DNA from: Leptolyngbya sp. | GTDB taxonomy: Bacteria > Cyanobacteriota > Cyanobacteriia > Leptolyngbyales > Leptolyngbyaceae | DNA: 64,000 nt | Direction of reading: 5' to 3' | Assembly: GCA_003249025.1 (NCBI GenBank) | Contig: QBMH01000005.1 | Span: 1-64,000 of the forward strand | Shown: positions 26,968 through 53,438 of the stretch, piece after piece | Layout: each line of letters begins with the position of its first letter | How positions within the stretch are numbered: position 1 is the first letter of the stretch | Program-made: the position numbers and the translations under genes | The notes under the pieces: model-generated | The model's input: only the letters and a program-made list of their open reading frames with translations | The model's database searches: none | What the model was told of the DNA's origin: nothing

Positions 26968-27161
26968 AGGCAACTCAGTCAATCTTGAACCCATTTACTG
27001 AAACAACATTTGTTGACTAAAATCACAAAACCACCCTAGCTTATGCCATGCCCTGTCAACGAGAATTTTTCTGGACAGTGTAACTAGACAGCGTAAAAAA
27101 TGGAAAATGCGAAATTAAAGGTGCAAAGATAAAATACTTTGAATAATTGCGTAATCAGTTC

Positions 27162-28508
27162 ATGACAGTTTCTCGCACCATTTGTTTAGGCTTTCTTGCG
27201 GTGATCGGAGCAGGAACGCTGCTCCTCAGCTTACCCATTTCCACCACCAGCGCAAACTGGGATTGGAACAACGTCCTCGTAGGTTTGTTTACGGCAACCT
27301 CGGCGGTCTGCGTAACGGGGCACATCATAGTCGATACGGGCACCTATTTTTCCACCGTAGGGCACTTTTTTATTGTGGCGCTCATTCAGATCGGCGGCTT
27401 GGGCTACATGACCGCCACCACCTTTTTGCTGTTGCTGCTAGGGCGACGGATGGGGCTGCGGAACAAAGTTGCCGTCCAACAAGCCCTCGATCGCACCGAA
27501 ATTCACGGAGCCAGTCAATTAATCCGCTCCATCATCGCCACTACATTGTTGTTCGAGCTAACGGGTGTCTTTCTGCTGCTGTTTGTGTTTGTGCCTCAAT
27601 ATGGCTTAGATAAGGGCTTATGGCTATCTATTTTTCATAGCGTTAGCGCTTGGAACAATGCTGGATTCAGCGTTTTTTCAGATAACCTCACGGGCTATCA
27701 AGCCTCGCCTTTGATTAATCTCGTCATTCCGGGGCTGATCATTTTTGGCGGAATTGGCTACGAAGCAATTTTCGAGATGTATCTCTGGTTGCGAGCACGC
27801 TTAACCCGCCAGCAGAAACGCATGATCTTTTCGCTCAATTTCAAAGTTGCGGTGAGCACCACATTGATTTTGCTGACTTTAGGGACGATCGCCTTCTTCC
27901 TCGTAGAAAGTCAAAATTCCAAAACATTGGGCGTGATGGATCTGCCGACCCGGTTGATGACGGCATGGTTTCAATCAGCCACCTCTAGAACCGCAGGCTT
28001 TAACACAATCGATGTCGGCAAAATGACCACCGCAGGGCTATTTATCACCATTGCACTGATGTTTGTAGGGGGCAGTCCAGGCGGCACCGCAGGCGGCATC
28101 AAAACCACCACTTTACGAATTCTGACCAGTTGCACCAAGGCAGTGCTACAGGGAAAAGAGGAAGCGCAGCTTTATGATCGTCAAATTCCGACGACGCTGG
28201 TGTTGAAAGCCGTTGGGGTCACCGTCGGCTCTATGGCAGCGGTAATTGTGATCACCATTTTGATTTCCCTGTCCGACCCAGAATACAATTTCATCCAGAT
28301 TTTGTTTGAAGTGGTATCCGCCTTTGGCACGGTGGGCTTATCCACTGGCATCACCTTAGATGCTGGCTTTTCGGTATTTGCCAAGCTAATGCTAGTCGTG
28401 ATGATGTATATCGGACGGGTTGGGGTGTTGCTGTTGATGGCGGCGCTGTTGGGCGATCCCAAGCCGAGCTTTGTGCGCTATCCCGAAGAAACGTTGTTAG
28501 TCGGCTAA
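27162..28508 (+). CDS. ktrB: TrkH/KtrB-family potassium/sodium transporter subunit
   Basis: TATSAVCVTGHIIVDTGTYFSTVG, SVSAWNNAGFSVFSDN, FQSATSRTAGFNTIDVG, FVGGSPGGTAGGIKTTT selectivity-filter repeats. Confidence 0.88.
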   Translation: MTVSRTICLGFLAVIGAGTLLLSLPISTTSANWDWNNVLVGLFTATSAVCVTGHIIVDTGTYFSTVGHFFIVALIQIGGLGYMTATTFLLLLLGRRMGLRNKVAVQQALDRTEIHGASQLIRSIIATTLLFELTGVFLLLFVFVPQYGLDKGLWLSIFHSVSAWNNAGFSVFSDNLTGYQASPLINLVIPGLIIFGGIGYEAIFEMYLWLRARLTRQQKRMIFSLNFKVAVSTTLILLTLGTIAFFLVESQNSKTLGVMDLPTRLMTAWFQSATSRTAGFNTIDVGKMTTAGLFITIALMFVGGSPGGTAGGIKTTTLRILTSCTKAVLQGKEEAQLYDRQIPTTLVLKAVGVTVGSMAAVIVITILISLSDPEYNFIQILFEVVSAFGTVGLSTGITLDAGFSVFAKLMLVVMMYIGRVGVLLLMAALLGDPKPSFVRYPEETLLVG

Positions 28509-28753
28509 AAAGAGGAGCCAAACTGGAGTCAAAGAAGCGCTCGCGCTCGTCCTGTGCTTTCTTTGAAGAGTCTCAGTGAACGAGCGATCGCGACCAGTCC
28601 TACCGAAATGATCGCGTCACCCCAATCACGCGCACCAATCCGGTGATACCGCTGACCAGCATTGAGATGAGGATGGCGATCGCCAAAATCACCGCTGTCG
28701 GAGAGTCGGATCGGATGATAGATGTGGGATCAATCGGGGCGATCGCACGATCT

Positions 28754-29389
28754 TTACTTCAACCAAGCGAGTGACTGTAGAACTTTTTCCAATTCCAAGG
28801 GCGTAATACTGCTATTTTTTCCACATTTATAATTCTCCTGATAATACTGAGAACCAGAAGAAACCGCGTTGTAATAAGGAGAACGCCCCGACCCTGACAT
28901 TGCTGGAAAGCTAGATAATTCAGCCTGTGGAATTTTCAGTTGCTCTGGCTTAGGAGTCTTTCCTAACTGTTGTCGAGTCGGGATTCTGCCACTACCGCGA
29001 ATCGGATTAAATCCAATCGTAACTTCGCCTAAAAGTTTTGTTTTGGTGGTGAACTGAAACTCGTCATCGCCACCACCACCCCCACCACCAATCGCATTAA
29101 TCAGCAAGCAAGTATTTGTAGGGTCACGATAGACGATGCTGTAATAGGGACCTTCCCGGCAAAGACCTTGGCGAGGCATATTTGTAGGACACCGTTCTGC
29201 GATAACTTGAGAAACTTTAAAGCCACGCGGAACATAGGTGGGGACAGCAATTTGAATGCCCAATGCTTTTAAGGATGCGCGCTGAGCAGCACTTAAACCA
29301 CTGGGTGCATCTTGAGCCGCAGCCAAAACACTTGAGTTCACTAATCCGGTAACGATTGATGTGTAGATACTGAGTCTAATAAACATCAT
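28754..29389 (-). CDS. Hypothetical exported protein with poly-Gly tract
   Basis: Signal-like N-terminus; INAIGGGGGGGDDEFQF; conserved-looking Cys residues. Confidence 0.6.
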   Translation of the reverse strand: MMFIRLSIYTSIVTGLVNSSVLAAAQDAPSGLSAAQRASLKALGIQIAVPTYVPRGFKVSQVIAERCPTNMPRQGLCREGPYYSIVYRDPTNTCLLINAIGGGGGGGDDEFQFTTKTKLLGEVTIGFNPIRGSGRIPTRQQLGKTPKPEQLKIPQAELSSFPAMSGSGRSPYYNAVSSGSQYYQENYKCGKNSSITPLELEKVLQSLAWLK

Positions 29390-29797
29390 TTGAACCCGAT
29401 TTAAACAAACCTTACCTTCGTACAGACTATCAGCCTATTGTATCAATCCGCTTCAACCAAATTTTTATATGGCGATCGCAGTCTGCACTGGGAGGTGAGA
29501 AGCTCAGATTACCTTGCTTTTACTAAAAAAAGAGGCGATCGCGACGTTGAACTTCAGATTGCAAATTCGGTGATTACAGCTTACTGTTGTATCCCTGATC
29601 TTTAAGGCTCTATCTACTAAAGTTTCATGACTACATTCAACAAAAAAACTCACAATTATTCTTAGACATCGCAACCCATTAATGAACCTCCAAGTGCGCG
29701 TCTGCCGGTGGATCTCTGGGGCAAAACGTCAGGAATTCATGTTAATTGATGCAGCACAACGTTAGTTTGCGCTACTACTAGAATGTAGAAAATTTGT

Positions 29798-31405
29798 TCA
29801 TGCCTTCTCTCTAATGGTCTTTTTGTTGGATCTAGTCGGTTTGCGAGACTCTTGCATCGAAGATAACTGGAATATAGGAAATGATCTCACATCTTTTGCA
29901 AGAACAGGTTTAGGTTCTTCAGAAAATAAATTTATACTTCTTGCGGTACGTATACCTACGTAAAAACCATAATCCAACATGAGAGCCATATAACGTCGCC
30001 CAACTTCACTAGGAGTAATACCAGCGTGTAAAATATGTAGAAGACGTAAGGCAATTAACTCTTCAATCTTGTGAAAAGTTGAGTTTTCATTTTGGATTTC
30101 CACGAGAAAAACGTTCTTACGCTGCTCAGTCACACAAAATTGCTGAATAGCCTTTAAAATCTTATTAATCTCCTCATATTTACTTGAAGCATCAAGCTTA
30201 ATATCTCTAAGTTTCTCATCAGTCATTTCAGATGCGGATGCATTCACACTGCTAACAGATACTTTTTTCTGATCTCTCACACTTGATTCACTGATTGCTT
30301 GTGAGAATAAATAGAGCGCATCACGCGGCACACCTGCTGATACCCAAACTAAGCGATCTATCACCCCATCTCCGCAAACATAATCTATACTAGGAAGCCC
30401 ACAATAAACTGCATGTGAGTTCAAAATTTCTTGAATATGCCGTTTTGATTTATCTGGCATAGTCAAGTTGTAGTCTAGCCGAATTACTTGAATATCGCCT
30501 GGTGTTTCAAGTCCTTGACGCGAAGAAGGATCTCGTAGCTTGACAAATTGCTCAATCCCAGAAATTTTTAAGAAAACTTGGTTGCCTCGACAAATAGAAT
30601 ATAGCTTGTCTAATAAAATTGGCTGAAGTGTTTCAACAACAACGTGTATATCATCCAGAAAAATAAAAACACTGCCACACTGTGACGCGATCTTACCAAA
30701 AGCTCGTCTTATTCGAGGAAGCAGTCGGTTAAGATGCTCAATACCTTCCTCCTCATTTTTATCAAGAACAGCTTCAAGATTTGGCAAGAATGCCTCAAAG
30801 CCAGCTTGATTAGATACATAGTCTTGAAGTTGATTAATGATATCAATTAGCACTTCCGCTATGGTTCCGATATCATTACGTCCACTATATGTTTGTATAT
30901 TCACCCAAGCATAAGGAGAGTTTGACTGACGTAAACTATGCATTAGATAAGCTAGCAAGCTTGACTTACCTGCGCCTCTTCTTCCATAAACAATATGATT
31001 ACTTTGGCTAACAATCTGTTCTTCATCTCCAGAAACTGACCTTATATATCGAGTGAAAAAATCATCGGCGAAGCTGTGTTGAGTCGCCGTAAGACTTTCA
31101 GACAAAATTGTTCTCAAAAATTGTGTTTCTGGTAATTGAAGCCGATTATTAGGACGTAGAGATCTTTTCTTTATTGTTGTTCTTTGCTTATATGGATTTT
31201 CTTCAGATAATGCATTTAAACTTTGCTGTAGTAATCCAAAGAAACGATCTGTCGGATTGCCTAAATAAATGATTAAATAATCGCTTTCTGAGCGTTCTTT
31301 TAACTCATATTCAACATGAATCAGGCGAGTTAGCTTCTTGAATTGATTTATGACTTCATCTAAATACTTTTGCTGATCCTGCTGGGTTACTGCATTTAAG
31401 CTCAT
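29798..31405 (-). CDS. P-loop ATPase (STAND/Orc-like) with N-terminal domain and C-terminal winged-helix-like region
   Basis: Walker A VYGRRGAGKSSLLAYLMHS, Walker B SVFIFLDDIHVV, KIEELIALRLLHILHAGITPSEVGRRYMALMLDYGFYVGIR C-terminal region. Confidence 0.82.
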   Translation of the reverse strand: MSLNAVTQQDQQKYLDEVINQFKKLTRLIHVEYELKERSESDYLIIYLGNPTDRFFGLLQQSLNALSEENPYKQRTTIKKRSLRPNNRLQLPETQFLRTILSESLTATQHSFADDFFTRYIRSVSGDEEQIVSQSNHIVYGRRGAGKSSLLAYLMHSLRQSNSPYAWVNIQTYSGRNDIGTIAEVLIDIINQLQDYVSNQAGFEAFLPNLEAVLDKNEEEGIEHLNRLLPRIRRAFGKIASQCGSVFIFLDDIHVVVETLQPILLDKLYSICRGNQVFLKISGIEQFVKLRDPSSRQGLETPGDIQVIRLDYNLTMPDKSKRHIQEILNSHAVYCGLPSIDYVCGDGVIDRLVWVSAGVPRDALYLFSQAISESSVRDQKKVSVSSVNASASEMTDEKLRDIKLDASSKYEEINKILKAIQQFCVTEQRKNVFLVEIQNENSTFHKIEELIALRLLHILHAGITPSEVGRRYMALMLDYGFYVGIRTARSINLFSEEPKPVLAKDVRSFPIFQLSSMQESRKPTRSNKKTIREKA

Positions 31406-31905
31406 AAGGTAACTCCTCGGCTAATCAGGTATCTGCTTGCATCGCCTAAAAAATTTGTCACGATTAATTCCGCTTCATCCTGTGTAAGCACTAAATCTGA
31501 TTCTATGGCTGTATGGTCATAGTCCGATAGATTTCTATCTTCTCGCAAATCTCGTAGGCGAATTGTGTAGGTACTAGCATTGTCTAGACTGGAAGGTAGT
31601 TCTGTCTTTTTATGGTCATCTACATCTGTTCGGAAAGATCCATTTTCATGAAGATTCACGGCGCGGCGTACATTATATGCCCCATAGTAAAGTCTAGAAA
31701 TCCGTTGTCGCCAGTACTGCTGGGATAATTGTCTTGCAAACGCATGATGTGATTTTCCAAGCTCAAACAGCAGTTTAACATTTACGTTAATCTCACTTTG
31801 GATAGCATCACAGGCAGTAATATCCAAAATATGACGAAGGTTTGCAAGCATCTGATGAGAATTTGACGAAGCCAGTAACAGATGCGGCGATTTTAAACCC
31901 ATCAA
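31402..31905 (-). CDS. HEPN-like all-alpha protein, translationally coupled to the ATPase
   Basis: YWRQRISRLYYGAYNVRRAVNL ... LRDLREDRNLSDYDHTAIESDLVLTQDEAELIVTNFL resembles the HEPN R-YY-AY / RN..DYDH pattern. ATGA overlap with the downstream gene. Confidence 0.65.
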   Translation of the reverse strand: MMGLKSPHLLLASSNSHQMLANLRHILDITACDAIQSEINVNVKLLFELGKSHHAFARQLSQQYWRQRISRLYYGAYNVRRAVNLHENGSFRTDVDDHKKTELPSSLDNASTYTIRLRDLREDRNLSDYDHTAIESDLVLTQDEAELIVTNFLGDASRYLISRGVTL

Positions 31906-32287
31906 AAAACTCCAGACAATTGCTAGAAAATCAATCTAGTCATTTTAGCTTTTACTACAGGATTAATGGCATTAACTGTACAGTCGTATTTAATGCGATG
32001 CCTCATTTATCTAGAGGCATCTTGAACTTTGAAATTAGGCAAGTAGCTTTCTTAATGAATTGCACCAACAATTAATCAGAAAGTTGACTGTAACGTTTAA
32101 CTTCACTTTTGTAGGCTAACTCTGCTAGCCATGATACTTTGCACTTTCATCATAGTGCCTGACATTTTGGGAATCAAACAAATTTTTTGCAGCTTAAAGC
32201 AATCTCTGAAAGGTTATCTGCGCTCTTACAGCGTAAGTTCAAATATGACCTAATAAAACCTATAAAAAAGTTATTCAATTCTCTATC

Positions 32288-33061
32288 TTAAGCAAAGGCG
32301 GAGGAGCCGAAATCGGGGGGGATATCTTGCCAGCGCCCTTGACCGACGGCGCGGATGGCTTCTTTCAAAGAAACTTCGCCTGTATAGAGGGCTTTGCCGA
32401 CGATCGCGCCCGTTACGCCCAAGGGTTCCAATGACAACAGGCTGAGCAAATCCCGCACAGAACTCACGCCGCCCGATGCAATGATCGGAATTTCGATCGC
32501 CCCTGCCAACTCGCGCAGCGCCTCCAAATTGGGACCTTGCATCGTGCCATCCCGGTAAATGTCGGTGTAAATAATTGCCGCCGCACCCGCGATCTCCATC
32601 CGCTGAGCCAGTTCCGTTGCCAACACTTCCGAGGTTTCAATCCAGCCCCGTGTTGCCACCTTGCCAGCCCTTGCATCAATTCCTACCACAATTTGGTCGG
32701 GGAATTCTTGGCAAAGCTGAGTCACGAGATCCGGCTGCTCGACCGCGATCGTGCCCAAAATAATCCGCCGCACCCCCAAATTCAGCAAGCTGGCAACACT
32801 GGCCCGATCGCGTAAACCGCCCCCGACTTGAACCGGAATATCAATTGCACGGGCGATCGCCTCAATCGCCGCCAAATTTACCGGATGTCCGGCTTTCGCA
32901 CCGTCGAGATCAACCAGATGTAAGAGAGTTGCGCCCTGATCTGCCCATTGTCGTGCCACTGCTACCGGATTTTCATCAAACACCTGCGACTGGGCATAAT
33001 CGCCTTGATACAGGCGCACACACTGTCCTGCGAGTAAATCAATCGCGGGTATTACGTCCAT
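32288..33061 (-). CDS. hisA: Phosphoribosylformimino-AICAR ribotide isomerase HisA
   Basis: [71 protein letters not shown]. Confidence 0.97.
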
Positions 33062-40553: not shown

Positions 40554-41702
40554 TTAAGCCAGCAAAAACTGCCGTACCTGTTGCGCGATCGCTGTCCAGT
40601 CAAAACGTTGCTTGGCATAGTCGCTGCAAGCGGTTCGCGTGGGTAGCGTTATCTGCCCTGACAAAATATCTGTTAGGGCATGAGCGATACTGTTGGCTCC
40701 ACTCGTTTGAGTAATCAGGTGTGGAGAAAAATCACCAATCACTTCTGGCATTCCACCCACTGGCGTACAAACTACAGGCGTACCACAGGCGAGGGATTCC
40801 ACCAGCACTAAGCCAAACCCCTCCAGCGATTGACTGGGCATGATGGTCAGGTCAGCCGCTTGATAGGCAATGGGTAGATCTTCATCAGGCAGAAAACCAA
40901 GAAACTGAACGTGGTTTTGCAGTTCAAGTTCCTTCGTCTGGTGCTCTAAATCATCTCTTAAAGGACCTCTGCCTGCGATCGCCAGCCAAATATCAGGATA
41001 GGTTTGTTTGACCTGTGCCACAGCCAACAGCAACTTATCTAGCCCCATACGATGGACTAGACGGCGCGGAGTGAATAAGATAAAGCGATCTGGTGACCAT
41101 TCCAGTTTTTCTCGTGCTTGTTGTCGGGTCAAGTTTGGCTGAAAGTGTTGGATATCGACTCCACCCGGAATCACATGAATCTGCTCCCAGGAAATATGAT
41201 ATTCCCGATGCAAGATCTCACCAAAGGCTTTGCTCAACACAATGAAGCGATCGCAGCGCTGGTAGACAGTTTGTTCAATCAGTTTTTTGAATAAAATGCT
41301 TAGTTTGTTACTGCCTTCGCGATCGCTTTCCTGTGCCCAAGGTCCATGAAAAGTACAGGTGACTGGCACATCTTTTGGCAGATGGGGTAACAGAGGCAAC
41401 CCATAGAGCGCAAAGTGCAAATTGATCGCGTCTGGTTGAGATTGAAAGCCACTATTAAATACTTGGTTTGCTGACCAAAGCCGTTTCAATAGAGAAGCTT
41501 CTGATTCAGCTAAATTTGTTAGTTGTAGTGGAAACTTGGATCGGCTTGTGGGTAAGCCGATACCAAAAAGTTCAACATTCGTTTGTAATTTAATTAAATT
41601 ATGGACTAACTCATAAACATAGCGATCGAGTCCACCCGGATTTTTGGGAAACCAGTAATTACCAACAACGGTTATTTGAGTAGAGTGAATTGATGAGTTC
41701 AT
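40554..41702 (-). CDS. Glycosyltransferase family 4
   Basis: NPGGLDRYVYELVH, VIPGGVDIQHFQPN, FTPRRLVHRMGLDKLLLA, EGFGLVLVESLACGTPVVCTPVGGMPEV. Confidence 0.9.
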   Translation of the reverse strand: MNSSIHSTQITVVGNYWFPKNPGGLDRYVYELVHNLIKLQTNVELFGIGLPTSRSKFPLQLTNLAESEASLLKRLWSANQVFNSGFQSQPDAINLHFALYGLPLLPHLPKDVPVTCTFHGPWAQESDREGSNKLSILFKKLIEQTVYQRCDRFIVLSKAFGEILHREYHISWEQIHVIPGGVDIQHFQPNLTRQQAREKLEWSPDRFILFTPRRLVHRMGLDKLLLAVAQVKQTYPDIWLAIAGRGPLRDDLEHQTKELELQNHVQFLGFLPDEDLPIAYQAADLTIMPSQSLEGFGLVLVESLACGTPVVCTPVGGMPEVIGDFSPHLITQTSGANSIAHALTDILSGQITLPTRTACSDYAKQRFDWTAIAQQVRQFLLA

Positions 41703-41722
41703 ATAAGCTTAATCTAAGTACA

Positions 41723-41863
41723 TCAACTAATGACTTGCTGAATAAACTCTAAATATTTCTGAGCAATCTTTTCAGTTGTAAAGTCTTGTACTCGTGCTTG
41801 TAATGTTTTGAAGTCTAGGGGGCGATCAAGCGTTTCGCAAATTGCAGCAGCAAGACTGTCAGT
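41723..41863 (-). pseudogene. Remnant of a glycosyltransferase C-terminus
   Basis: Minus-strand reading DSLAAAICETLDRPLDFKTLQARVQDFTTEKIAQKYLEFIQQVIS-stop, with a stop just upstream in the same frame. Confidence 0.65.
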
Positions 41864-41993
41864 TTAAGATAAATCGAGTTAGTCCATTACCATGCATGGG
41901 CGGCAAAAAAACTGATCAGTTGATTGTTCATGCTTTAGTACTTTTGCGATGGGCACTATGAATCTGTCTGTCGAGTTTAGGGAGTGAATAAAT

Positions 41994-42758
41994 TTAAATC
42001 CATAACCACGGAAATAGAGTATTGATTGAGCTACGAACCCGAAATTTCCATAAATCATTCGTTGTATATCCTCGGTTATCGGCTCCACGAAATCCTTCGA
42101 TTAAAGGGGTAACTTTAAAGCGACGCACAAACTTAATGTTGGACTGTTGATCAAACCATTTTCTCAGCAGTTCTTCTGCTCCAGAATTGGTAGGTACATC
42201 TGGCTCATTGAGTCTCAGCTTTTGATAAATATTCTGCAAGCATGTTTGATAGGCTTTAGGTGTCCAAGCAATCAAAAAAGTATCAACCCAATGCTTAGGA
42301 AAATTTCTGAAATTACAATAGATTCCAAAGTTGTTAGGTTGTCGGTTAATCAGCTTGTCAATATTTTCTACAATATATCGACCCGTTATCTTCCAAACAA
42401 TAGTATTCTCCGGTTGTCTAGCAATGATTGCGGAATTCTCCATTGCATAGTCAATCAGTTTAAATTCACCATAGGCGCGATCGTAGTGAGGTGGATAGTC
42501 AAGCCCATTAAACACAATGAACTCAACTTGATCGGACAGGTTTCTTTCTTTTACTAGCTTTTCTAAACTAGATATCTCTGAGTTGGAATTTTCAGCAAAA
42601 ACAATTGCATCGCAGCATTGATTCAGTTTAGATAAATAGAATTTGAATGCCTGTTCATAATCTTTTAGTCGTAGGGCTGGATCGGTTCTCTTCAGATTGG
42701 GAACTCCGCTTTTCGGAGTGATTGTTGCTGTTAGTAGTAAAACATTTTTAGTTTTCAT
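41994..42758 (-). CDS. Hypothetical protein in the EPS cluster (possible glycosyltransferase-fold protein)
   Basis: MKTKNVLLLTATITPKSGVPNLKRTDP...VWKITGRYIVENIDKLI...; intact ORF between degraded GT genes. Confidence 0.55.
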   Translation of the reverse strand: MKTKNVLLLTATITPKSGVPNLKRTDPALRLKDYEQAFKFYLSKLNQCCDAIVFAENSNSEISSLEKLVKERNLSDQVEFIVFNGLDYPPHYDRAYGEFKLIDYAMENSAIIARQPENTIVWKITGRYIVENIDKLINRQPNNFGIYCNFRNFPKHWVDTFLIAWTPKAYQTCLQNIYQKLRLNEPDVPTNSGAEELLRKWFDQQSNIKFVRRFKVTPLIEGFRGADNRGYTTNDLWKFRVRSSINTLFPWLWI

Positions 42759-43206
42759 AAGCTCCTTTCAGTGCCATACTTTCAAACAAATCTATGTACT
42801 CTTTGGCTTGTTGCTGCCAACTGTATTTTTCTACAACTTATCTGGCTACTTTGCCCAGCACTTGGCATTTTTGAGGATTATCAGAAAGCACCTGGAGGAT
42901 CTGAAAAAGGCATTTCTCATCCGTTTGATCTGTTAGAACAAAGCCACTTTCAGGGGATACAATCTCTGCGACTCCTGCTGTGGCGCAAACAATCACGGGT
43001 AAGCCGGAAGCCATTGCTTAAAGTACTACCATGCCAAACGGTTCATAGTGAGACGAAAAAATAAACATATCTACGGCTCGCATCAAATGAGAAGTAATGC
43101 CATTTTCTCCCCATAAAGTTCCTAGAACAAATAGAACACTAGGATTTGTATCAGTGGGATCAAAAGAATTAGTTCTCGGACGGAGCGGAGAATTGTATCT
43201 TTGCAT
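42748..43206 (-). pseudogene. Glycosyltransferase family 4 pseudogene with two in-frame nonsense codons
   Basis: AVDMFIFSSHYEPFGMVVL*AMASGLPVIVCATAGVAEIVSPESGFVLTDQTDEKCLFQILQVLSDNPQKCQVLGKVAR*VVEKYSWQQQAKEYIDLFESMALKGAYEN*, single frame with two TAA codons. Confidence 0.9.
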
Positions 43207-43262
43207 AATTTTTAGTCTGAATAACTATCAAGAAATAATCTAGATTTCAGCACCATTTCTTT

Positions 43263-44711
43263 TCAGGAAGAACTATAAGGCACTTTCATAGGCTTAGACT
43301 CAGAAACCGTTTTCTGAATGGGGAGTAAATTTTGATATCTGTAATATTTGTGCCCCGCGATTGTCATACCTGAGAATCCCCAAAATAGTATTCCGGGAAG
43401 TAGTACTAAAGCGTTATTAAACGGAAGTGTTATTAAGATACTTGGTAGGATTGCGCGAGAAGCATTCATGAAAGGATCAAAACGTATTTCTTGATATGAA
43501 TAGAGAGTGAAAGATATTAGCACGATGCCACTGAGATAAGGCGCTAGCCCAAGCCATCCTAGGGTGGCAATAATATCTAAAACGCCTGCGTCAACAATCC
43601 CTTTACCTCCCATGCCTCGACCTAAAAATTCGGATAATACATTATTTAAGAGTTGAGCATAGATTTCCTGCCGCTCGTTTGCACTTGTATCGCCCTCAGT
43701 ATCTGAGAAAGATTGCAAGCGTACGATGATGGGTTCCGCAAGAGGAGTTGAGATGACTATTGGAACCAAAAAGACACCAATAATTAGAAATATCATGATT
43801 ACTCTTATCTTTAGATTGGGCTTAAGGGTTACCCAAAAACTGAACATTCCTATTAGCCAACCGATCCAGGCTCCCCGAACTTGTGATAAGAGAAACGACA
43901 AGCCCCCAATGACTACTGATGGCAAGATTAAGCTGCCACGGCTCCCAATTGATATTAATAAACACGCCATCATTGCATAGGCAAATGTGAATGGAAAGTT
44001 TAACGTACTCCATACTCGTATCTGCTGTGGTTCAGGCCACCCGCAGCAGAGTTGCAAGTCTTCTGCATTTGCAAGCCAAAATTTATCCCACTCCGGAGCT
44101 ACTAGATATTGGTATATTCCATAAATTCCCATGATTAAGATTGCCCAAACAAACACTCGTTGGGTGTTTTTCTGAAACTTAGGATAGTCCTGCCAGTTCA
44201 CCATCAGATGAACTCCTAAAAAAATACCTGGAAGCCAACTTAAAATGCCTTGGATGACTTGGGGAATTGGATTGCCTTTAACTATTCCCATAAGAAAAGC
44301 ATAAGAAATACTTACAAAAGCCAAGATGAACGGTGTTCCTCCCTGTTGATGTAAGCGTGGCAGTTGTTTGAAGAATGTCACTGCCGTCAGCATGGTTACC
44401 AAATAGGGAGTCAGAATGATAAAGCGCATTCCAGGATTGATAATGCCATTCTGATACTCAACTAGGCGTGAGATGAAAGGAGATAAAAACCAGACCCACC
44501 AGTTGAACCCTAGATACAAAATTGGGTAGCGCAGATACAGAAATACACCGACTGTTAAAGCACCTGCTGGAAAGACTACTTGGAGGATGCTACTGAACCG
44601 AATTAACAGACAAAGAGACACTGGGATAATGAACCCCAAAATTCCTATCCATGCTGCCTGAGGTTCTAAGCTCAATGGGTTCTTTAGTAAGAAAAAGGAT
44701 TTCGCTACCAT
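43263..44711 (-). CDS. O-antigen polymerase/Wzy-like multi-spanning membrane protein
   Basis: About 10-12 hydrophobic segments; location between GT genes; LSQVRGAWIGWLIGMFSF region typical of Wzy/WaaL-type proteins. Confidence 0.75.
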   Translation of the reverse strand: MVAKSFFLLKNPLSLEPQAAWIGILGFIIPVSLCLLIRFSSILQVVFPAGALTVGVFLYLRYPILYLGFNWWVWFLSPFISRLVEYQNGIINPGMRFIILTPYLVTMLTAVTFFKQLPRLHQQGGTPFILAFVSISYAFLMGIVKGNPIPQVIQGILSWLPGIFLGVHLMVNWQDYPKFQKNTQRVFVWAILIMGIYGIYQYLVAPEWDKFWLANAEDLQLCCGWPEPQQIRVWSTLNFPFTFAYAMMACLLISIGSRGSLILPSVVIGGLSFLLSQVRGAWIGWLIGMFSFWVTLKPNLKIRVIMIFLIIGVFLVPIVISTPLAEPIIVRLQSFSDTEGDTSANERQEIYAQLLNNVLSEFLGRGMGGKGIVDAGVLDIIATLGWLGLAPYLSGIVLISFTLYSYQEIRFDPFMNASRAILPSILITLPFNNALVLLPGILFWGFSGMTIAGHKYYRYQNLLPIQKTVSESKPMKVPYSSS

Positions 44712-44714
44712 TGC

Positions 44715-45638
44715 TTACCTACTTTGCCAAGTTTGATATCCCTGCCAGCGTCCCTGCATTGCAGCCACCCATTTTTTTGCTGCTAGCAAACCCTCTTTGG
44801 GAAAAAAGCGCAGGCATTGTAATAATCCGAACGATTGCTGTGTACCAATGATCAAAGACCAGAGGAGAAATACGATCCGTTGAATAGGAGATAGATATTC
44901 TAGAACTGAGATTGTTTCGTTATGCACTGCATTGGTTAAAGCCATAGTGTTAAATGTGTGCCTCTGGTCTTCATCAAATCGTTGGGCTGGATAGTGATCA
45001 ACTGCAACTTTCGGATCATAAATTAGTTTCCATCCCTGCTTTTGAACAGTGAGAGAAAATGCAAATTCGTAGTGAACTTGGGCACCCGTTCCTCTCATGC
45101 GCTCATCGAATTTGAGATTTTTAATAGCTGCCTGCCGAAAGCTCATGTTGACCCCTTTCAAGATATCGACCTCACAAATTTCGTCTACACCAATGTGGTG
45201 ATTGCCGATCGCCCGTCCAAACCAACTCAATTTGCCGACTACAGTTGCAGCACCGTCTTCTAAAATCTCGCCATGGTAAACATAATCTCTACCCCCAACG
45301 CCACCAATCTGGTCATCGGCTAGAAAATGTTTCTCAATCCGTTCAATCCAGTCAGGGTGGGGCACTGAATCATCATCGGTAATGGTCAGAATATCGCCCT
45401 TTAGGGCTGACAGTCCGGCATTCATGGCGGCAACCAAACCAGGGACAGTTACTTCAACGGTTTGTAGCGGCAACTTAAGATGGCTAACTGTTTGCAAAGC
45501 TTCCCAGGTTTCAGTATCAATGTCGCGGATGGCAACAATCAATTGATCAATCGGCCGGGTTTGCTGGGCTAAGGCTTTGAGGCATCGCAGCAGATCGTGG
45601 GGGCGGCGATAGGTGGGGACTAAAACAGTAATTAACAT
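44715..45638 (-). CDS. Glycosyltransferase family 2
   Basis: ITVLVPTYRRPHDLLRCLKALAQQ, GDILTITDDDSVPHPDWIERI. Confidence 0.9.
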   Translation of the reverse strand: MLITVLVPTYRRPHDLLRCLKALAQQTRPIDQLIVAIRDIDTETWEALQTVSHLKLPLQTVEVTVPGLVAAMNAGLSALKGDILTITDDDSVPHPDWIERIEKHFLADDQIGGVGGRDYVYHGEILEDGAATVVGKLSWFGRAIGNHHIGVDEICEVDILKGVNMSFRQAAIKNLKFDERMRGTGAQVHYEFAFSLTVQKQGWKLIYDPKVAVDHYPAQRFDEDQRHTFNTMALTNAVHNETISVLEYLSPIQRIVFLLWSLIIGTQQSFGLLQCLRFFPKEGLLAAKKWVAAMQGRWQGYQTWQSR

Positions 45639-45640
45639 GG

Positions 45641-46759
45641 TTAGGCTAGTTGTTCAAATCTATCAATATAATGTTGAGCCATTTGGCTCCAGCTATGATT
45701 TTCTGCAATCACACGAGCATGAATACCCATTTGTTTTCGTTGAATTGGATGATGGGTTAAATAGAGCATCTCTTTGACCAGAGTTGGAATATCGTCGGGA
45801 TTGGAAATAACAATCCCTGCTTCGGGATCCAACAGTTCGGCGGCAGGAGTTGCAGCACTGGTAATAACTGGAATTCCTGATGCCATTGCTTCTAGTACTA
45901 CTAATCCAAAGGTTTCATAGCGAGAGGGAAACACCAAAAAGTCACTTGTTCGCATGAGGTCAGGAATATCTTGGCGATATCCCAGAAAATGTACCCGGCC
46001 ATCAACAGCCAACTCACGAGCTAACGCAGGATAAGGGCTACCAGTTACGTTTCCAACGACAGCAAGGTGTAACCCGGAAACCTTTACCAAAGCTTTAAGA
46101 ACAGAGTCAAGATTTTTGCGCGAGGAACGGATGTCTCCGGCAAAAATAGCGAGGGGTACTACTTCTGGTAATGCCAAGGCTTTACGATCGCAATGACCAG
46201 GATAAAACTCATTTGTATCGACCCCGTTGTAAATGACCTGGATGCGATCGCTGGCAACGCCAATCTTCTGTAAGTCATCACGCACTTGAGCGGATACAGC
46301 AATAATCTGGCGTGCCTGGGCAAAAGCACGACCTTCCCAACGAGCATTTAAGGCGGTATAAAGCCACTGGTATAGACCATAAGCATCTTTGTGCTGTTGC
46401 CAAACGTGGGCTGGAGAGTCTAACCAGGCACTATGGACGAAATGGGCAGCATTTACGTCTGCGCTTGCCCAGGTAATTGCCCCATTGACCTTAACTAAAT
46501 CGAATTCTCGCCCATGAGCATTAAGCCATTGAGACGACAGACTGGCAAAGCGCAGATTTTTGAGTAACTCTGTGGGCACTTTTCCGACTGAAATTGGCAC
46601 CCAATTGAAACCGGATTGCTTTTGAAGTGACTCGGCAATGTGAGTCGCGACAACGGTTACCTGATGACCACGGCGCAAGGCTTCTTGAGTGACCTCGTAA
46701 TTCACTCGTCCCTGTCCGTCCCCTTTAGCAACCTTGTGAGTAACAATGCACAGTTTCAT
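45641..46759 (-). CDS. Glycosyltransferase family 4
   Basis: VIYNGVDTNEFYPG, FVFPSRYETFGLVVLEAMASGIPVITSAAT-like C-terminal domain. Confidence 0.92.
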   Translation of the reverse strand: MKLCIVTHKVAKGDGQGRVNYEVTQEALRRGHQVTVVATHIAESLQKQSGFNWVPISVGKVPTELLKNLRFASLSSQWLNAHGREFDLVKVNGAITWASADVNAAHFVHSAWLDSPAHVWQQHKDAYGLYQWLYTALNARWEGRAFAQARQIIAVSAQVRDDLQKIGVASDRIQVIYNGVDTNEFYPGHCDRKALALPEVVPLAIFAGDIRSSRKNLDSVLKALVKVSGLHLAVVGNVTGSPYPALARELAVDGRVHFLGYRQDIPDLMRTSDFLVFPSRYETFGLVVLEAMASGIPVITSAATPAAELLDPEAGIVISNPDDIPTLVKEMLYLTHHPIQRKQMGIHARVIAENHSWSQMAQHYIDRFEQLA

Positions 46760-47874
46760 TGGTTAAGTGCCTCTTGTAAGACTGCTTCAATCCCATTAAT
46801 GGTCTGGTTTAAGGAAAAGTTGTTGATTACATGTTGACGGCATCGTTGAGGCAGAATGGGGTCGGTATTTCGCCAGTGAAGAACCGCTTTGAGTTTGGTA
46901 TGGAGGTCTATCTCATCTCCAGGCGTAAAGAGCCAATCGCTAAATTCACCAGTTAAAATCTCTGGAATACCACCACTGCGACTACCAAGAGCGGGGGTGC
47001 CACATGCCATGGCTTCGATAATGACGCGACCAAAAGCCTCGAGCCACAGGCTTGGTAACACGGTTACATCGCTCACTTGATAAAGCGATTTTGTATTGGA
47101 AAGGTGTCCTAGAAATCTGACATCATCTTTGATATTGAGGTCATCAGTTAATGCTTCTAATTGAGATATGTATCCCTCCCCAGAAAATAAGGATTTGCCT
47201 GCAATTAGCAATTTTGCTGGAATGGATGACTGCCGCAGTAAAGCAAATGCACGAATGAGGGTTTCGATACCCTTTTCAGTTTCTAGCCGACCAACATAGG
47301 AAATCACTCGCTCTTCGGAAGAGATATCCCAAGCTTTGCGCAGGTCAGAAATATCGTCGGCAATGGCAAAGCGCTCTGGTTCAATACCGTTATAAACAAT
47401 AGAGACTTTATCGCGACGAATGTTGAGGCGATCGCACCAGTCAGTTTTAACAGCTTCTGAAATTGCAATGTAATGGCTAATTCCTAATAAGGTAAGCGAT
47501 TGCTTGAGTCGCTTGAGATAACTATCTTCTGTAGAGGCGTGAAGACGAAGATGGCAGACAAGTGGAATGCCTTGTAGCTGAGATAGTACTCGTCCAAAGA
47601 AGAAATTGTCGTACTGATTGCTGTAAATAATGCTGTTTTGAACGTTTGTAATCTTTCTAACATCGCTCAAAAATCTACTATTAAGCTTATAGCTAGTGAT
47701 TTTAATCAATGCAGTGCAAAACTGCTGATACTTCTCAAGCTGATCGCCCTCTTCTTCGTAAACAAGAGTAATTTGATATCCACGCTCAACTAAAGCTTGG
47801 CAAACATCAAAGAGACTGTGTTCTAAGCCGCCACGCTTACTCGACAAATAACTAGATAGGGCAATAATATGCAT
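46756..47874 (-). CDS. Glycosyltransferase family 4
   Basis: KRGGLEHSLFDVCQALVERGYQ, IVYNGIEPERFA, SYVGRLETEKGIETLIRAFALL, EAFGRVIIEAMACGTPALGSRSGGIPEIL. ATGA overlap with next gene. Confidence 0.92.
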   Translation of the reverse strand: MHIIALSSYLSSKRGGLEHSLFDVCQALVERGYQITLVYEEEGDQLEKYQQFCTALIKITSYKLNSRFLSDVRKITNVQNSIIYSNQYDNFFFGRVLSQLQGIPLVCHLRLHASTEDSYLKRLKQSLTLLGISHYIAISEAVKTDWCDRLNIRRDKVSIVYNGIEPERFAIADDISDLRKAWDISSEERVISYVGRLETEKGIETLIRAFALLRQSSIPAKLLIAGKSLFSGEGYISQLEALTDDLNIKDDVRFLGHLSNTKSLYQVSDVTVLPSLWLEAFGRVIIEAMACGTPALGSRSGGIPEILTGEFSDWLFTPGDEIDLHTKLKAVLHWRNTDPILPQRCRQHVINNFSLNQTINGIEAVLQEALNQ

Positions 47875-47907
47875 GGTGCTTTGATTACTTGAGATGGGTC
47901 TAGCAAG

Positions 47908-49005
47908 TTAGCCTGAAACTGCTTCAATAAAACGCGTGGCTGTAGCAACAGGATTGTAATTTTCGCGAACCCATTGCCGTCCTTCAACTGAAATCCTTTC
48001 GAGGCATTCTGGATCATCGCTCAATCGCTCGATTGATTCTTGAACATTATTTAGATCAATCCCAACATAATGCTTCCAGTTTTCAGGCATGGTAGGTAAA
48101 GTAAAGCCATACTTGTCAAAATCTACATGAAAAGCAACTGTTCCAGAAGCAAGAGCCTCCCATAACCGCCAGCTATCCCATTGCACAATACTTCTAGTTT
48201 TAATGCCTGATTTTCCTATAATTCGCTTGGAGAGACGAGCGAGGTTAGTACTTGGATCAACTAAGAAATCGCTTACGAAAAAACCTCCAAAACAAGCGCA
48301 AGCAGCCACCTGCTTAAGGTTTCTATAATAACTGGGATAATGTCTACGAGCAGTTTGGAGCCATTGCAAGTAGGAGTTAGGATCAGAAGGAGGTTGGTTA
48401 AAACCATCTACAGGATTTTCAGTTGGCAGCATTGTTTGAATCTTAGGCAGAAAATCTTTGACTGCGGCAACTCTAACTGAATGGGGGATATTGTTCAGAC
48501 GGAAATTAATCAGCATTGATTTTCTACGCTCTTCAAACTTTAGAATTTCTTCAGTTTCCTTTAAGATTCGATCAGACAATCCAAAAAACCATGGGTAAAA
48601 ATTGGTTGGATAGCGATGACTACTGCAATAGTGAGTCCGAAAAATAAAGTCGAATTGTCGAAAGGCTGGATCCCAAGCAGACGTTCGAGTTCCATCTGAA
48701 GAATCAAAATGAGCAGTAATATACTTTCGTTTGGAATTGAATAAACTTCTAGGGAGGTTATTGCGAAATACCCAAGATTGATTCAATACAACCACGTCAC
48801 AATCTTCAGGAGTTACATGAGAATCGCATTTAAATAAGTACTCATCTTTATCGGCTGACAGCCTCCAATAGTCAACATTGGAATAAAATGGAATATCTAA
48901 TGCTTTCAATCCTTCACCAAGACACACAATATTATGTTGATAAGCTGTATCTTCTGGTAATCCCTGAGGTACACAGTAAAAGAAAATACTTTTTGTACTG
49001 TTCAT
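47908..49005 (-). CDS. Glycosyltransferase family 1 / CgeB-like protein
   Basis: WDSWRLWEALASGTVAFHVDFDKYG...GIDLNNVQESIERLSDDPECLERISVEGRQWVRENY pattern. Start MNSTKSIFFY preferred. Confidence 0.65.
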   Translation of the reverse strand: MNSTKSIFFYCVPQGLPEDTAYQHNIVCLGEGLKALDIPFYSNVDYWRLSADKDEYLFKCDSHVTPEDCDVVVLNQSWVFRNNLPRSLFNSKRKYITAHFDSSDGTRTSAWDPAFRQFDFIFRTHYCSSHRYPTNFYPWFFGLSDRILKETEEILKFEERRKSMLINFRLNNIPHSVRVAAVKDFLPKIQTMLPTENPVDGFNQPPSDPNSYLQWLQTARRHYPSYYRNLKQVAACACFGGFFVSDFLVDPSTNLARLSKRIIGKSGIKTRSIVQWDSWRLWEALASGTVAFHVDFDKYGFTLPTMPENWKHYVGIDLNNVQESIERLSDDPECLERISVEGRQWVRENYNPVATATRFIEAVSG

Positions 49006-49112
49006 AGTGTTCGCCTCATATGAAAACAAAATATAGGTATTTTACAAAACTAATTAGTGTGACGTGATGATTTTGATATAAGTTTCTCGCTCATCTGAAA
49101 TAGTTAAAAAAA

Positions 49113-50033
49113 TTATCTTACGGTTTCTCCACCCAGTACTAATCTAATTTTCTCAAGCACTGTCACGTAATGAACGAGAGAGAAAATTAGTAGAAAAGAA
49201 ACTTTGTGAGCAAAACTATTTAGTATGTCTTGTTCTTGTGTTTTTTTGTAACCAGATCTCAGAGGTGGTCTGAGCTGTAACAACAGTTTCAGTAACAGTA
49301 GGATTTTATTTCTGGAATACTGATTTTCCATCGTATGAAAACCACCCGTTACTCTAGCTATTTTTCTTCTCAAATCCTTAAACATGTATCTAGCAGGATG
49401 CATAACAGAACTGTCTTCTGCATAAATCACTAAATAACCCGCATTAGAAACCCGTTTGCTCCACTCGCCATCACCGCCAGACTTTAAGGTGTCATCAAAA
49501 AAGCCTAACTCGTCAAAGAATTTCCGATGAGTAAAAAGATTTGCGGTAGCCGCAGAATTATACTTCTGAACATATTTTTCTTGCTGTAAAAAAGTCACGC
49601 TATCATATATCTCTACTAAATTCGGACGTTGAGAATTTTTAAAGAAAATTTCGATTTTTCCAGCAGCTACACCATACTTTGGACTCTTCAATAGAGACTG
49701 AACACCGTTTTGCAACCAACTGTCACATGGAATACAGTCTGAATCAGTAAAAGCAACGATATCACCTTTTGCAGAATTGATACCTCGATTACGAGCAGCA
49801 TACGAACCAGGCTTTTCTTCAATTAGTAAATGAATCCAAGAAAAATCTTTGAGTTCTTTCGATGGATCTTTTACAGACTTATTATCAACTACGATTACCT
49901 CATACAATTCTTTCGGATAGCTTTGCCGTTCCAAAGACTTTAAGCATAAACATAGACGTTCAAAATCATTAAAAACAGGAATAATAACGGAGACGAAAGG
50001 ATAGCTTTTATATTCCACAATGTGTTCATTCAT
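49113..50033 (-). CDS. Glycosyltransferase family 2
   Basis: PFVSVIIPVFNDFERLCLCLKSLERQSYP, GSYAARNRGINSAKGDIVAFTDSDCIP. Confidence 0.93.
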   Translation of the reverse strand: MNEHIVEYKSYPFVSVIIPVFNDFERLCLCLKSLERQSYPKELYEVIVVDNKSVKDPSKELKDFSWIHLLIEEKPGSYAARNRGINSAKGDIVAFTDSDCIPCDSWLQNGVQSLLKSPKYGVAAGKIEIFFKNSQRPNLVEIYDSVTFLQQEKYVQKYNSAATANLFTHRKFFDELGFFDDTLKSGGDGEWSKRVSNAGYLVIYAEDSSVMHPARYMFKDLRRKIARVTGGFHTMENQYSRNKILLLLKLLLQLRPPLRSGYKKTQEQDILNSFAHKVSFLLIFSLVHYVTVLEKIRLVLGGETVR

Positions 50034-50042
50034 TACAGTGCC

Positions 50043-51113
50043 TCAACTTACTTTAAGGTTATCTAATCTTTTTGCTTCGCAAAGGCGAGCAGCTAGGGTA
50101 TGTGGATCTGAAGGACTGCGACCCATCAAATTAGATTCAAAATCAAAATGATCTGAAAGCTGTTTTTGTAGCCAAGATTCCTGTTCTTTGATGGTTCCAG
50201 GTTTAAATGTCTTTAATACAAATGGAATTTCTAATCCGGTTGGATTGTAAGAAAAAGAATATTTATTAGCTTGCAGGTTTCTGATAAAAGTTTTATCTTC
50301 GATACAGGAAATCGATTTTGCAATTGTATTGCTCTTCCAAATAGAATGATTTGGATAACATTCTTTTAGAATCGCAAAAGCATAAAGATTGAAACTATGA
50401 TAGCCTAGTGACCTTTCATATATATCCTGGTTATGGCTCTTATTTTTAGGCTCTCGAATCCAACGCATGATTTGTTTTTTATAACTAAAATTTCTCATAG
50501 CTACAGAATGCATGATCAATCCATTCGGAGCTATGTCGAGATGAAATAGGATAGTCTCAAGAAAACGCTCTACAGAGTCCTTGACTTCAGCATCGTATTT
50601 TGAGAGAGTCGCGCCGATTGCCCCAAACCATAGTTGTTGGTTGAAAGTGAGATGGATGGGCAAATGTACCCCATCAACACTTACATTTTGCCAAAGTCCA
50701 ATTTCAAAGTTAAAAGGATGAAGTAAAAATACTTCTTTGGCCACAGATATTAGTTGAGGTGTTTCTATAATTGGTGCAGCCGTGATTAACGCATCTAGAG
50801 TCCAAGCTTGGCCAATCAATCCATTGCAAGAATCTTTTTTTGGATTTTTTCGATGCCAGAAGCTATACGACATTGGTCTTGCATGATGACTAAGCAAATA
50901 TGAGGATGCTAGCTGCGCTGCATGCTTAAATCTGTCATCTCCCGATATTTCAAAGGCTTTTGAGAAAGTGATAAGCCAATGAGACGTATTGCGTACAGGT
51001 GTTTCGGCATCTCCGTGAGGACCATTATTACCAGCAGGCATAATACCTGTAGAGGAATCTTGAAGCTTTAAAGCTGAAAACGCACTCTCGCAGATCAAAT
51101 CATATAAGTCCAT
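50043..51113 (-). CDS. Hypothetical alpha/alpha-toroid (six-hairpin glycosidase-like) protein in the EPS cluster
   Basis: Helical repeats such as NTSHWLITFSKAFEISGDDRFKHAAQLASSYLL and GLIGQAWTLDALITAAPI. Start MDLYDLICES preferred. Confidence 0.5.
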   Translation of the reverse strand: MDLYDLICESAFSALKLQDSSTGIMPAGNNGPHGDAETPVRNTSHWLITFSKAFEISGDDRFKHAAQLASSYLLSHHARPMSYSFWHRKNPKKDSCNGLIGQAWTLDALITAAPIIETPQLISVAKEVFLLHPFNFEIGLWQNVSVDGVHLPIHLTFNQQLWFGAIGATLSKYDAEVKDSVERFLETILFHLDIAPNGLIMHSVAMRNFSYKKQIMRWIREPKNKSHNQDIYERSLGYHSFNLYAFAILKECYPNHSIWKSNTIAKSISCIEDKTFIRNLQANKYSFSYNPTGLEIPFVLKTFKPGTIKEQESWLQKQLSDHFDFESNLMGRSPSDPHTLAARLCEAKRLDNLKVS

Positions 51114-51584
51114 TTTGAAATATCCTATTTCTTGTTTGGATAGAGTTTCAACCAAGGCACATTTTTGAAGCAATATTCTTCAGAGTAAATTAACTGGAAC
51201 AGTACTTTAGGAGGAATAATTGCTCAAGGATCTCTGCTTCCTTAATATCCCTTCTAGACTAAATGCTTTTGTTGGATGCATCAGTTCTCTCCAATTTACT
51301 AAGTTAGCTTTAAAGATCAAGAAGATCTGAGAAGTGATTGATGCTGCTAGAAATTACGTAATTGGTGACCGAAGGCAACTTTTACTGAGTATCATGACCG
51401 CACATGTTAACCCGCCCTTTGTCAGTCTTTGAGACGATCTCCTATGCTCTTTGGGAAACAACATTGTACGGATTAGTTTTGAATGTGAAGGGATATCGGC
51501 TAACTATTTTGTTGAAGAGGGCGTTGGAGCAGCCTCTCCTGCGGAGAATTACGTTATTGATAGTGAAATTAAGCAGGCGATTGC

Positions 51585-53438
51585 TTAACTAGATGCATTC
51601 AAGGCTGCATTATTTTGCAGATGGTGATAGTTCCACAGTTTGCCGCGCTGGGCTAGCAACTCCTGGTAGGTGCCCTGTTCGATGATGTGCCCCTGTTCTA
51701 AAACGACGACTTTATCCGCACGCATAATGGTTGATAAGCGATGAGCGATCGCGATTACCGTTCGCCCAACCGATAGCTGCTCAATCGATGCTTGAATCAG
51801 CCGCTCTGAGACCGAATCTAGCGCACTGGTTGCCTCATCCAAAATTAAAATTTCTGGGTTTCGCAGCAATGCACGGGCGATCGCGATTCGTTGGCGTTGC
51901 CCACCCGATAATCGGACTCCGCGATCGCCCAACACCGTATCGAGTCCTTCTGGCATATCTTCAATAAACTCCACTGCATTCGCGAGTTTAGCGGCTGCCA
52001 TCACCTCGACATCCTCAACATCAATGCCATAGGCGATATTGTTGCGTACCGATGTATTGAAAATAAATGTATCCTGGCTGACCATGGCAATCCGCTGCCG
52101 CACCGACGTGATATCAAACTCTCGTAAACTCACCCCATCCAGTTGAATATCGCCTTGAGTGGTGTCATAAAATCGCGGAATCAAGTCAGCCAGAGTCGAT
52201 TTACCTGCACCCGATGAACCCACCAATGCCACGGTTTGCCCTTTAGGAATGGTGAGCGTGATGTTTTGTAATACGAGTGATTCGTCCCCATAACCAAAAT
52301 CTACTGAGACAAACTCGATCGCTCGCTGCAAAGTTGTAAATTGTCGATAACCATTTTGCAGATAGGGCTTGTTGTCGCGGCGCAGTAACTCTTCAATCGC
52401 GTGTAATGATCCTTGCATACTGCCCATAGCGGCAAGACTGCCATTAATTTCCTGAATTGCTGGCACCAGGCGAAACATCAGAAAAATGAACGTCAACAGA
52501 GAACCCACTTGTAAGGCTCCACTACTGACAAACACGCTCATGCCCACCACAATCATGCCAATCAAAATCGTACTGGCGATCGCTTCTGCCAAAGGTCGCA
52601 CAATCGAAATTTGCATAATGGCTTGAACGTTTGTTTCAGCAATTTCATCACTGACGCGATAAAACCGTTGTCGCTCAAACTCCTGAGTGGCAAAGGCTTG
52701 CACCGTGCGGATGCCGTTAATAAACTCAGAAGCGATCGCGGTAAACTGCCCCCGTGCCTGCGACACCGGAAAACTCAATTCCCGCACCCGTCGATTGAAC
52801 GTCGATAAGCCCACCGCCATCAGGCTAAACAACAGTACCGATGCCAGGGTTAGCTGCCACGAGATGGTGATGGCGATCGCGCCATAGACCAATAACACTA
52901 GCCCTTTAGTAAACAAAAAGCTAAACGCACCAATAAAGTTTTGAAGCTGTCCCACTTCTGAGGTCAAGGTGTTGACTAAGCTGCCTGCCTGGGTTTGCCC
53001 AAAAAAACTTAGGCTCAATGATTGCAGTTGCTCAAAGATCTGGCGATATAGGCGATCGACCAGGCGAATTCTTGCCAGACCCATGTAAATTGCTGTCAAG
53101 TAATTGAAGATCGCTCGCACCCAAGTCGAAAGCAAAATTAGCCCAGAGACTCTAAACAATTGTTCCAGGTTCGATCCATTCGATCCCAACACCCAAACAT
53201 CAATCCACTCAATGCCAGAACGTACCGGTTCTGCATTCGGATTCACTAGATTTTGCAAAAACGCCAGCAAAAAACCAATGCCAAATCCCTCAAAAATTGC
53301 CGCTAGCATTGGAAATAGTAACGCTAAAGCCACAATCTGAGGGAAGAATCGAAGCTCCCGTAAAATCAGGCGATTGTCCTGCCAAAAGCGGGTTGCCTTG
53401 AGCAACGGACGTATAAAAGTTGGTAACTTGAACCCCAT
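51585..53438 (-). CDS. ABC transporter, fused permease/ATPase (HepA/MsbA-like exporter)
   Basis: TMD followed by VALVGSSGAGKSTLADLIPRFYD, LSGGQRQRIAIARALLRNPEILILDEATSALD. Confidence 0.93.
   Translation of the reverse strand: MGFKLPTFIRPLLKATRFWQDNRLILRELRFFPQIVALALLFPMLAAIFEGFGIGFLLAFLQNLVNPNAEPVRSGIEWIDVWVLGSNGSNLEQLFRVSGLILLSTWVRAIFNYLTAIYMGLARIRLVDRLYRQIFEQLQSLSLSFFGQTQAGSLVNTLTSEVGQLQNFIGAFSFLFTKGLVLLVYGAIAITISWQLTLASVLLFSLMAVGLSTFNRRVRELSFPVSQARGQFTAIASEFINGIRTVQAFATQEFERQRFYRVSDEIAETNVQAIMQISIVRPLAEAIASTILIGMIVVGMSVFVSSGALQVGSLLTFIFLMFRLVPAIQEINGSLAAMGSMQGSLHAIEELLRRDNKPYLQNGYRQFTTLQRAIEFVSVDFGYGDESLVLQNITLTIPKGQTVALVGSSGAGKSTLADLIPRFYDTTQGDIQLDGVSLREFDITSVRQRIAMVSQDTFIFNTSVRNNIAYGIDVEDVEVMAAAKLANAVEFIEDMPEGLDTVLGDRGVRLSGGQRQRIAIARALLRNPEILILDEATSALDSVSERLIQASIEQLSVGRTVIAIAHRLSTIMRADKVVVLEQGHIIEQGTYQELLAQRGKLWNYHHLQNNAALNASS

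Follow-up and report, generated by a model that had tools for sequence, protein, structure and literature searches.

The question raised by this locus is what two small, overlapping genes for a HEPN-like protein and a P-loop ATPase do in a Leptolyngbya genome, and whether they form an acquired defence or toxin-like system, as the original prediction had proposed. Both genes lie on the minus strand of the analysed 64-kb stretch of contig QBMH01000005.1, here called the window, and together they span about 2.1 kb. The upstream gene (31402..31902) encodes the HEPN protein, a predicted ribonuclease effector, and the downstream gene (29798..31405) encodes an ORC/Cdc6-type AAA+ ATPase of 535 aa that is predicted to act as the sensor or regulator of the HEPN protein. 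The two open reading frames were found where they had been placed, and an ATGA stop/start overlap (31402..31405) couples them. The length of 167 aa that had been given for the HEPN protein applies if translation starts at TTG 31905. The reading frame itself was correct, but ATG 31902, which results in a protein of 166 aa, is the likelier start because the N-termini of the relatives read M..GL.PH.LLAS and a GGAG sequence is located seven bases upstream of this ATG.

None of the Pfam and NCBIfam profiles matched the HEPN protein of the window, and its assignment as a HEPN protein therefore rests on structure and on its relatives. The AlphaFold2 model, which was built from a seven-sequence alignment, is all-alpha with a pLDDT of 91 and a pTM of 0.85. 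When this model was compared with the PDB using Foldseek, the first matches were 2hsb, 1ufb and 1wol, all of the HEPN type (probabilities of 0.99-1.0), with TM-scores of 0.66-0.69 by target length and weak E-values of 0.06-0.43. A comparison of the alignment with PDB sequences gave one weak HEPN match (E 0.029), and in a viral structure library the model matched nothing significantly, with one HEPN-annotated phage protein being recovered at a probability of 0.96. The modelled structure thus supports the HEPN fold that had been postulated from the signatures RISRLYYGAY and LREDRNLSDYDH, both of which are indeed present in the protein.

The downstream protein is a member of the ORC/Cdc6-type AAA+ clade. 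Against Pfam, it scored 50 bits for PF24389 (ORC-CDC6-like; cut-off 27) and 40.7 bits for AAA_16 (cut-off 32.6). Its structural model is of moderate quality (pLDDT 67), with Cdc6 and ORC subunits as the best folds in Foldseek and pLDDT values that stay under 50 for almost the whole of residues 453-535, the stretch of the candidate winged-helix tail; the ATPase alignment had no match among the PDB sequences. The Walker A motif GRRGAGKSS (GRRGAGKS at residues 141-148) and the Walker B motif FIFLDD (residues 247-252) are present as originally described. Both motifs are invariant or conserved in the alignment, which also includes an invariant V-P-R-D at positions 359-362 and a conserved C-terminal region. 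The PADLOC matches of the ATPase to PifA, BrxC and mad8 were weak, partial and placed around the P-loop region, and they were not used to assign the protein.

We then considered whether the two genes belong together. A search across bacterial and archaeal genomes yielded five loci, from a planctomycete, a member of the Burkholderiales, the candidate division Hyd24-12, Pseudomonas siliginis and an Acidobacteria metagenome-assembled genome (MAG). The pair was intact and in the same gene order in all of these except the Acidobacteria MAG, in which no HEPN gene was found anywhere in the genome and an IS-like transposase ORF is located just upstream of the remnant of the ATPase gene, of which the 3' part survives (L008, 4864-6818). 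Two further intact pairs were found in IMG/VR on the phage contigs L010 and L034. With the window and a pair on a Paraburkholderia plasmid (L009), this amounts to eight intact loci. Seven of them are referred to as close members, the divergent plasmid pair being left out. PHROGs contained no family for either protein, and a protein search with the pair in a GenBank phage collection gave no match. In all eight intact loci the HEPN and ATPase genes are adjacent and in identical order, and each junction allows an overlap of 1-4 bases. The expected co-occurrence was therefore observed across five phyla, two phage contigs and one plasmid. The close pairs share 39-47% identity with the window in the HEPN protein and 42-47% in the ATPase, whatever the phylum, and the plasmid pair shares 27-30%. 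The pairwise divergences of the two proteins are correlated (Mantel r 0.59, P 0.006, plasmid outlier left out).

The conservation of the HEPN protein bears on whether it could be an active ribonuclease. Among the seven close members 34 positions are invariant, and the densest invariant block of 12 residues is 120-131, LREDRNLSDYDH (P 0.03, with the choice of block position allowed for). It ends in the motif R124-N-x2-D128-Y129-x-H131 (RNLSDYDH; numbering from the TTG start), an Rx6H motif with N after R, which falls within the Rx4-6H definition of the HEPN motif (PMC3710099). A second histidine, H98, is located between helices 2 and 3 as D97-H98 within a DxxDH sequence; this histidine is conserved in all eight proteins, including the plasmid relative, and the alternative active-site histidine of HEPN-T proteins of the AF0298/2hsb type sits at an equivalent place (PMC3710099). 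On the basis of these sequences, the HEPN family of the pair appears to carry both active-site histidines, H131 and H98. It is improbable, in our judgement, that the HEPN protein is instead a non-catalytic adaptor, with the ATPase as the active, DNA-directed element in a process such as superinfection exclusion or the control of a prophage. Such a role would be in line with the nearest folds being HEPN-T proteins, in some of which the motif histidine is replaced (PMC3710099), with the asparagine found in place of H131 in the plasmid relative, the HEPN protein of which does score above the cut-off of the HEPN profile PF05168, and with the presence of two phage copies in lysogeny-control regions. 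However, the R, N, D, Y and H of the motif are invariant in all seven close members, as is H98, a pattern that would be difficult to account for if these residues had no part in an active site.

The distribution of the pair is very uneven. A full match was found in one of the 386 sampled cyanobacterial genomes, namely that of the window itself, and the 42 genomes of the window's family contained only one other relative, a distant ATPase. Likewise, close ATPases among 399 sampled Pseudomonadota were confined to the seed genomes, with one additional distant match, and among 246 sampled Planctomycetota to the seed genomes. The pair is rare and sporadic in its distribution, and most likely it moves horizontally. 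Its base composition agrees with this: the pair has a GC content of 38% compared to 47% for the whole window, and its GC3 values of 0.28 (ATPase) and 0.33 (HEPN) are lower than those of hisA (0.58) and TrkH (0.60). The pair is bordered by an AT-rich leader with 34% GC between hisA and the HEPN gene (31903..32275) and by an AT-rich intergenic stretch past the ATPase gene (29390..29797). The low GC content favours acquisition, but composition alone is not unique to the pair since two sugar-transferase/polysaccharide blocks within the window are equally AT-rich.

The absence of HIP1 sites (GCGATCGC) around the pair had been regarded as a further mark of acquisition. The HIP1-free block was confirmed from 29543 to 32852, with a gap of 3318 bases between site starts. 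However, when the 99 HIP1 sites of the 64-kb window were placed at random, a gap of at least 3318 bases was obtained in 40% of the trials (P about 0.40), and two gaps elsewhere in the window are longer. The gap is therefore no sign of foreign origin, and we rejected it as evidence. The two largest HIP1 gaps of the window are located in an AT-rich, HIP1-poor glycosyltransferase/polysaccharide-type block at 41300-51750.

A genome of the same genus (G386) lacks the pair. Its identity to the window breaks off at 32275, which is 13 bases beyond the stop codon of hisA. In G386, hisA is followed by an ORF of no assigned function and then by an AbiU2-type HEPN gene (PF18734, E 3e-22; L019, 892-1500). 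Given this gene, the spot after hisA may repeatedly receive HEPN-type conflict genes. On the other side of the pair, the TrkH gene (27147-28508) is followed in G386 and a further genome (G387) by a TrkA-like gene, of which no close homologue was found in the window's genome (99% complete; best identity 24%). The stretch with the pair occupies the usual place of TrkA, and the region 28509-32275 thus looks like a rearrangement or replacement junction. A 211-aa ORF adjoining the pair on the same strand (28754-29389) likewise has a somewhat low GC content (45%); it encodes a run of glycines and possibly a signal peptide, and it did not match Pfam. Searches around the pair for element boundaries yielded no integrase, tRNA or Rfam match, and the only terminal repeat was a 15-base imperfect inverted repeat that is plausible by chance. 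Scans for sigma-70 promoters and terminators at the pair gave results that were not above shuffled expectation. Altogether, the view that the pair was acquired and not vertically conserved was upheld by its occurrence in one of 386 cyanobacterial genomes, by the divergence after hisA and by the low GC content.

The surroundings of the other copies point to a role in conflict. The phage contig L010 has an integrase gene ahead of the pair and, after it, genes for an S24 repressor, a primase-helicase and a small terminase; judged from this gene content, it belongs to a temperate phage, the lysogeny region of which includes the pair. On L034, the genes after the pair encode a DinB-type polymerase, an S24 repressor and ParB. 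The Paraburkholderia plasmid pair is surrounded by a SIR2-HerA set, an AbiJ-like gene and an Eco29kI-type nuclease/methyltransferase, and the pair in L006 adjoins cytosine methyltransferase and restriction-type genes. The pair in L004 is placed at a contig end. Downstream of the Pseudomonas siliginis pair (L007, 8340-11634) are DUF5677, DUF4238 and ion-channel genes, none of which match PADLOC. The carriage in phage lysogeny regions and in a plasmid defence island supports a defence role. With only eight intact loci, an enrichment of the pair in defence islands is anecdotal, as L004 and L005 illustrate. In L005, the pair is located among housekeeping genes, with an alanine racemase gene on one side and a transporter gene on the other, and in the window its neighbours include no obvious defence or mobility genes. 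This would suit a housekeeping regulator of phage or host that has no conflict role and is carried along by chance transfers. We regard this as very improbable since one occurrence in 386 cyanobacterial genomes, with sporadic occurrences elsewhere, is unlike the distribution of housekeeping genes.

Several known systems resemble the pair in part. ORC/Cdc6 ATPases are established components of BREX, BREX-related, Ssp and other defence systems (PMC12839542, PMC10853773), and fusions of a DUF499 ATPase with HEPN occur in Type-1 BREX-related (Hma) systems (PMC12839542; Ava_2192 in PMC3710099). As in these fusions, which also have a defence setting, an ORC/Cdc6-type AAA+ ATPase is joined with HEPN in the window. 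However, in Hma the HEPN domain is fused and accompanied by a methyltransferase and a helicase, whereas the pair consists of two separate small genes and nothing else: the ATPase has no Pfam match to DUF499, and there are no methyltransferase or helicase neighbours at the window pair. The ORC/Cdc6 ATPases in defence and the HEPN-DUF499 fusion are thus already known, and the pair is a variation on that theme. In the literature searched, mainly outside subscription papers and preprints, no description of a two-gene pair of HEPN and an ORC-type ATPase was found. Of the named NCBIfam families, the P-loop ATPase family Sll1717 scored best for the ATPase, albeit below its cut-off (56.9 bits, cut-off 75), and the definition of that family shows no HEPN partner as far as seen. 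The next, DS41_1_antiphage, scored 32.3 bits against a cut-off of 370, which places the ATPase outside DS-41. Nevertheless, DS-41 is similar in that a distantly related ORC-CDC6-like ATPase adjoins a small effector-like gene; in the DS41_1 member that was inspected, the ATPase comes first and its neighbour is metallopeptidase-like, not HEPN.

The pair also resembles toxin-antitoxin systems, and the main rival explanation is that it is an addiction module in which the HEPN protein is the toxin and the ATPase the antitoxin, which serves to maintain the mobile DNA and for which phage defence would be at most a side effect. The overlapping genes, the toxin-like gene in first position, the small size and the plasmid and phage carriage would all fit. 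In addition, HEPN proteins pair with nucleotidyltransferase antitoxins in two-gene units of a small HEPN protein and a regulatory partner, including the PADLOC candidate PDC-M05, the HEPN profile of which (PDC-M05B) matched the HEPN protein weakly, and a dyad of HEPN (MAE_18760) and a ParA/Soj ATPase, with the same two-gene logic, has been proposed to be a toxin-antitoxin system (PMC3710099). However, unlike PDC-M05 and MntA-HepT, all eight intact loci pair HEPN with an AAA+ ATPase, and no nucleotidyltransferase gene adjoins the HEPN gene in the window locus. The dyad, in turn, differs in its HEPN family and in its SIMIBI-class ATPase. Moreover, the usual antitoxins are much smaller than a 535-aa AAA+ ATPase, and relatives of the ATPase are found beside a restriction-type nuclease gene or a metallopeptidase-like gene, as would be expected of a shared sensor more than of an antitoxin dedicated to one toxin. 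We therefore consider an addiction module unlikely, though less so than the other alternatives.

The related ATPases come from three genomes. In G421, of the window's family, the start of an ORC-CDC6-like ATPase gene lies 23 bases downstream of a gene for a DpnII/MboI-type nuclease (PF18742, E 6e-49; L038, 4946-7242), and this locus is possibly a sister module. G462 (L058) encodes a protein that passes the DS41_1 cut-off, and the product of the next gene contains a metallopeptidase-like region, which at 25.6 bits narrowly misses the cut-off of 26 for Peptidase_M50B. DS-41 is a validated anti-phage system (PMC13092281), and the metallopeptidase-like neighbour may represent its second part. A DNA-level comparison of the DS41_1 member with E. 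coli genomes gave no match. The third relative, in G717, appears to stand alone. That related ATPases adjoin DpnII/MboI-type nuclease or metallopeptidase-like genes suggests one ORC/Cdc6-type ATPase chassis with exchangeable effectors.

The pair is probably a small mobile sensor-effector module of anti-phage, abortive immunity. This explanation fits best because the pair is rare, mobile and co-inherited, combines a HEPN motif with an ORC/Cdc6-type ATPase and is carried by phages and a plasmid, and because cousins of the ATPase stand beside other effectors. In such a module, the upstream gene would provide a HEPN endoribonuclease, which the ATPase would keep inactive or with which it would assemble. 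On detecting an invader, most probably through its DNA or a replication intermediate, the ATPase could then undergo an ATP-driven rearrangement that turns the RNase on, and the active RNase would halt translation and phage production, presumably with an abortive outcome. It is a more tentative proposal, which we hold as plausible but short of probable, that the chassis is a general invasion sensor, with the effector swapped among a HEPN RNase, the DpnII/MboI-type nuclease of G421 and the metallopeptidase-like protein of the DS-41 family, which would make up a modular minimal immune family absent from the libraries searched. The pattern of effector swaps is a checkable prediction. If the proposed immune role is correct, the pair would be a very small two-gene addition to the defence ATPases of the ORC/Cdc6 type, known elsewhere mainly from the large machines of BREX and its relatives, and it would allow a direct test of ATPase sensing in a system stripped to one sensor and one effector.
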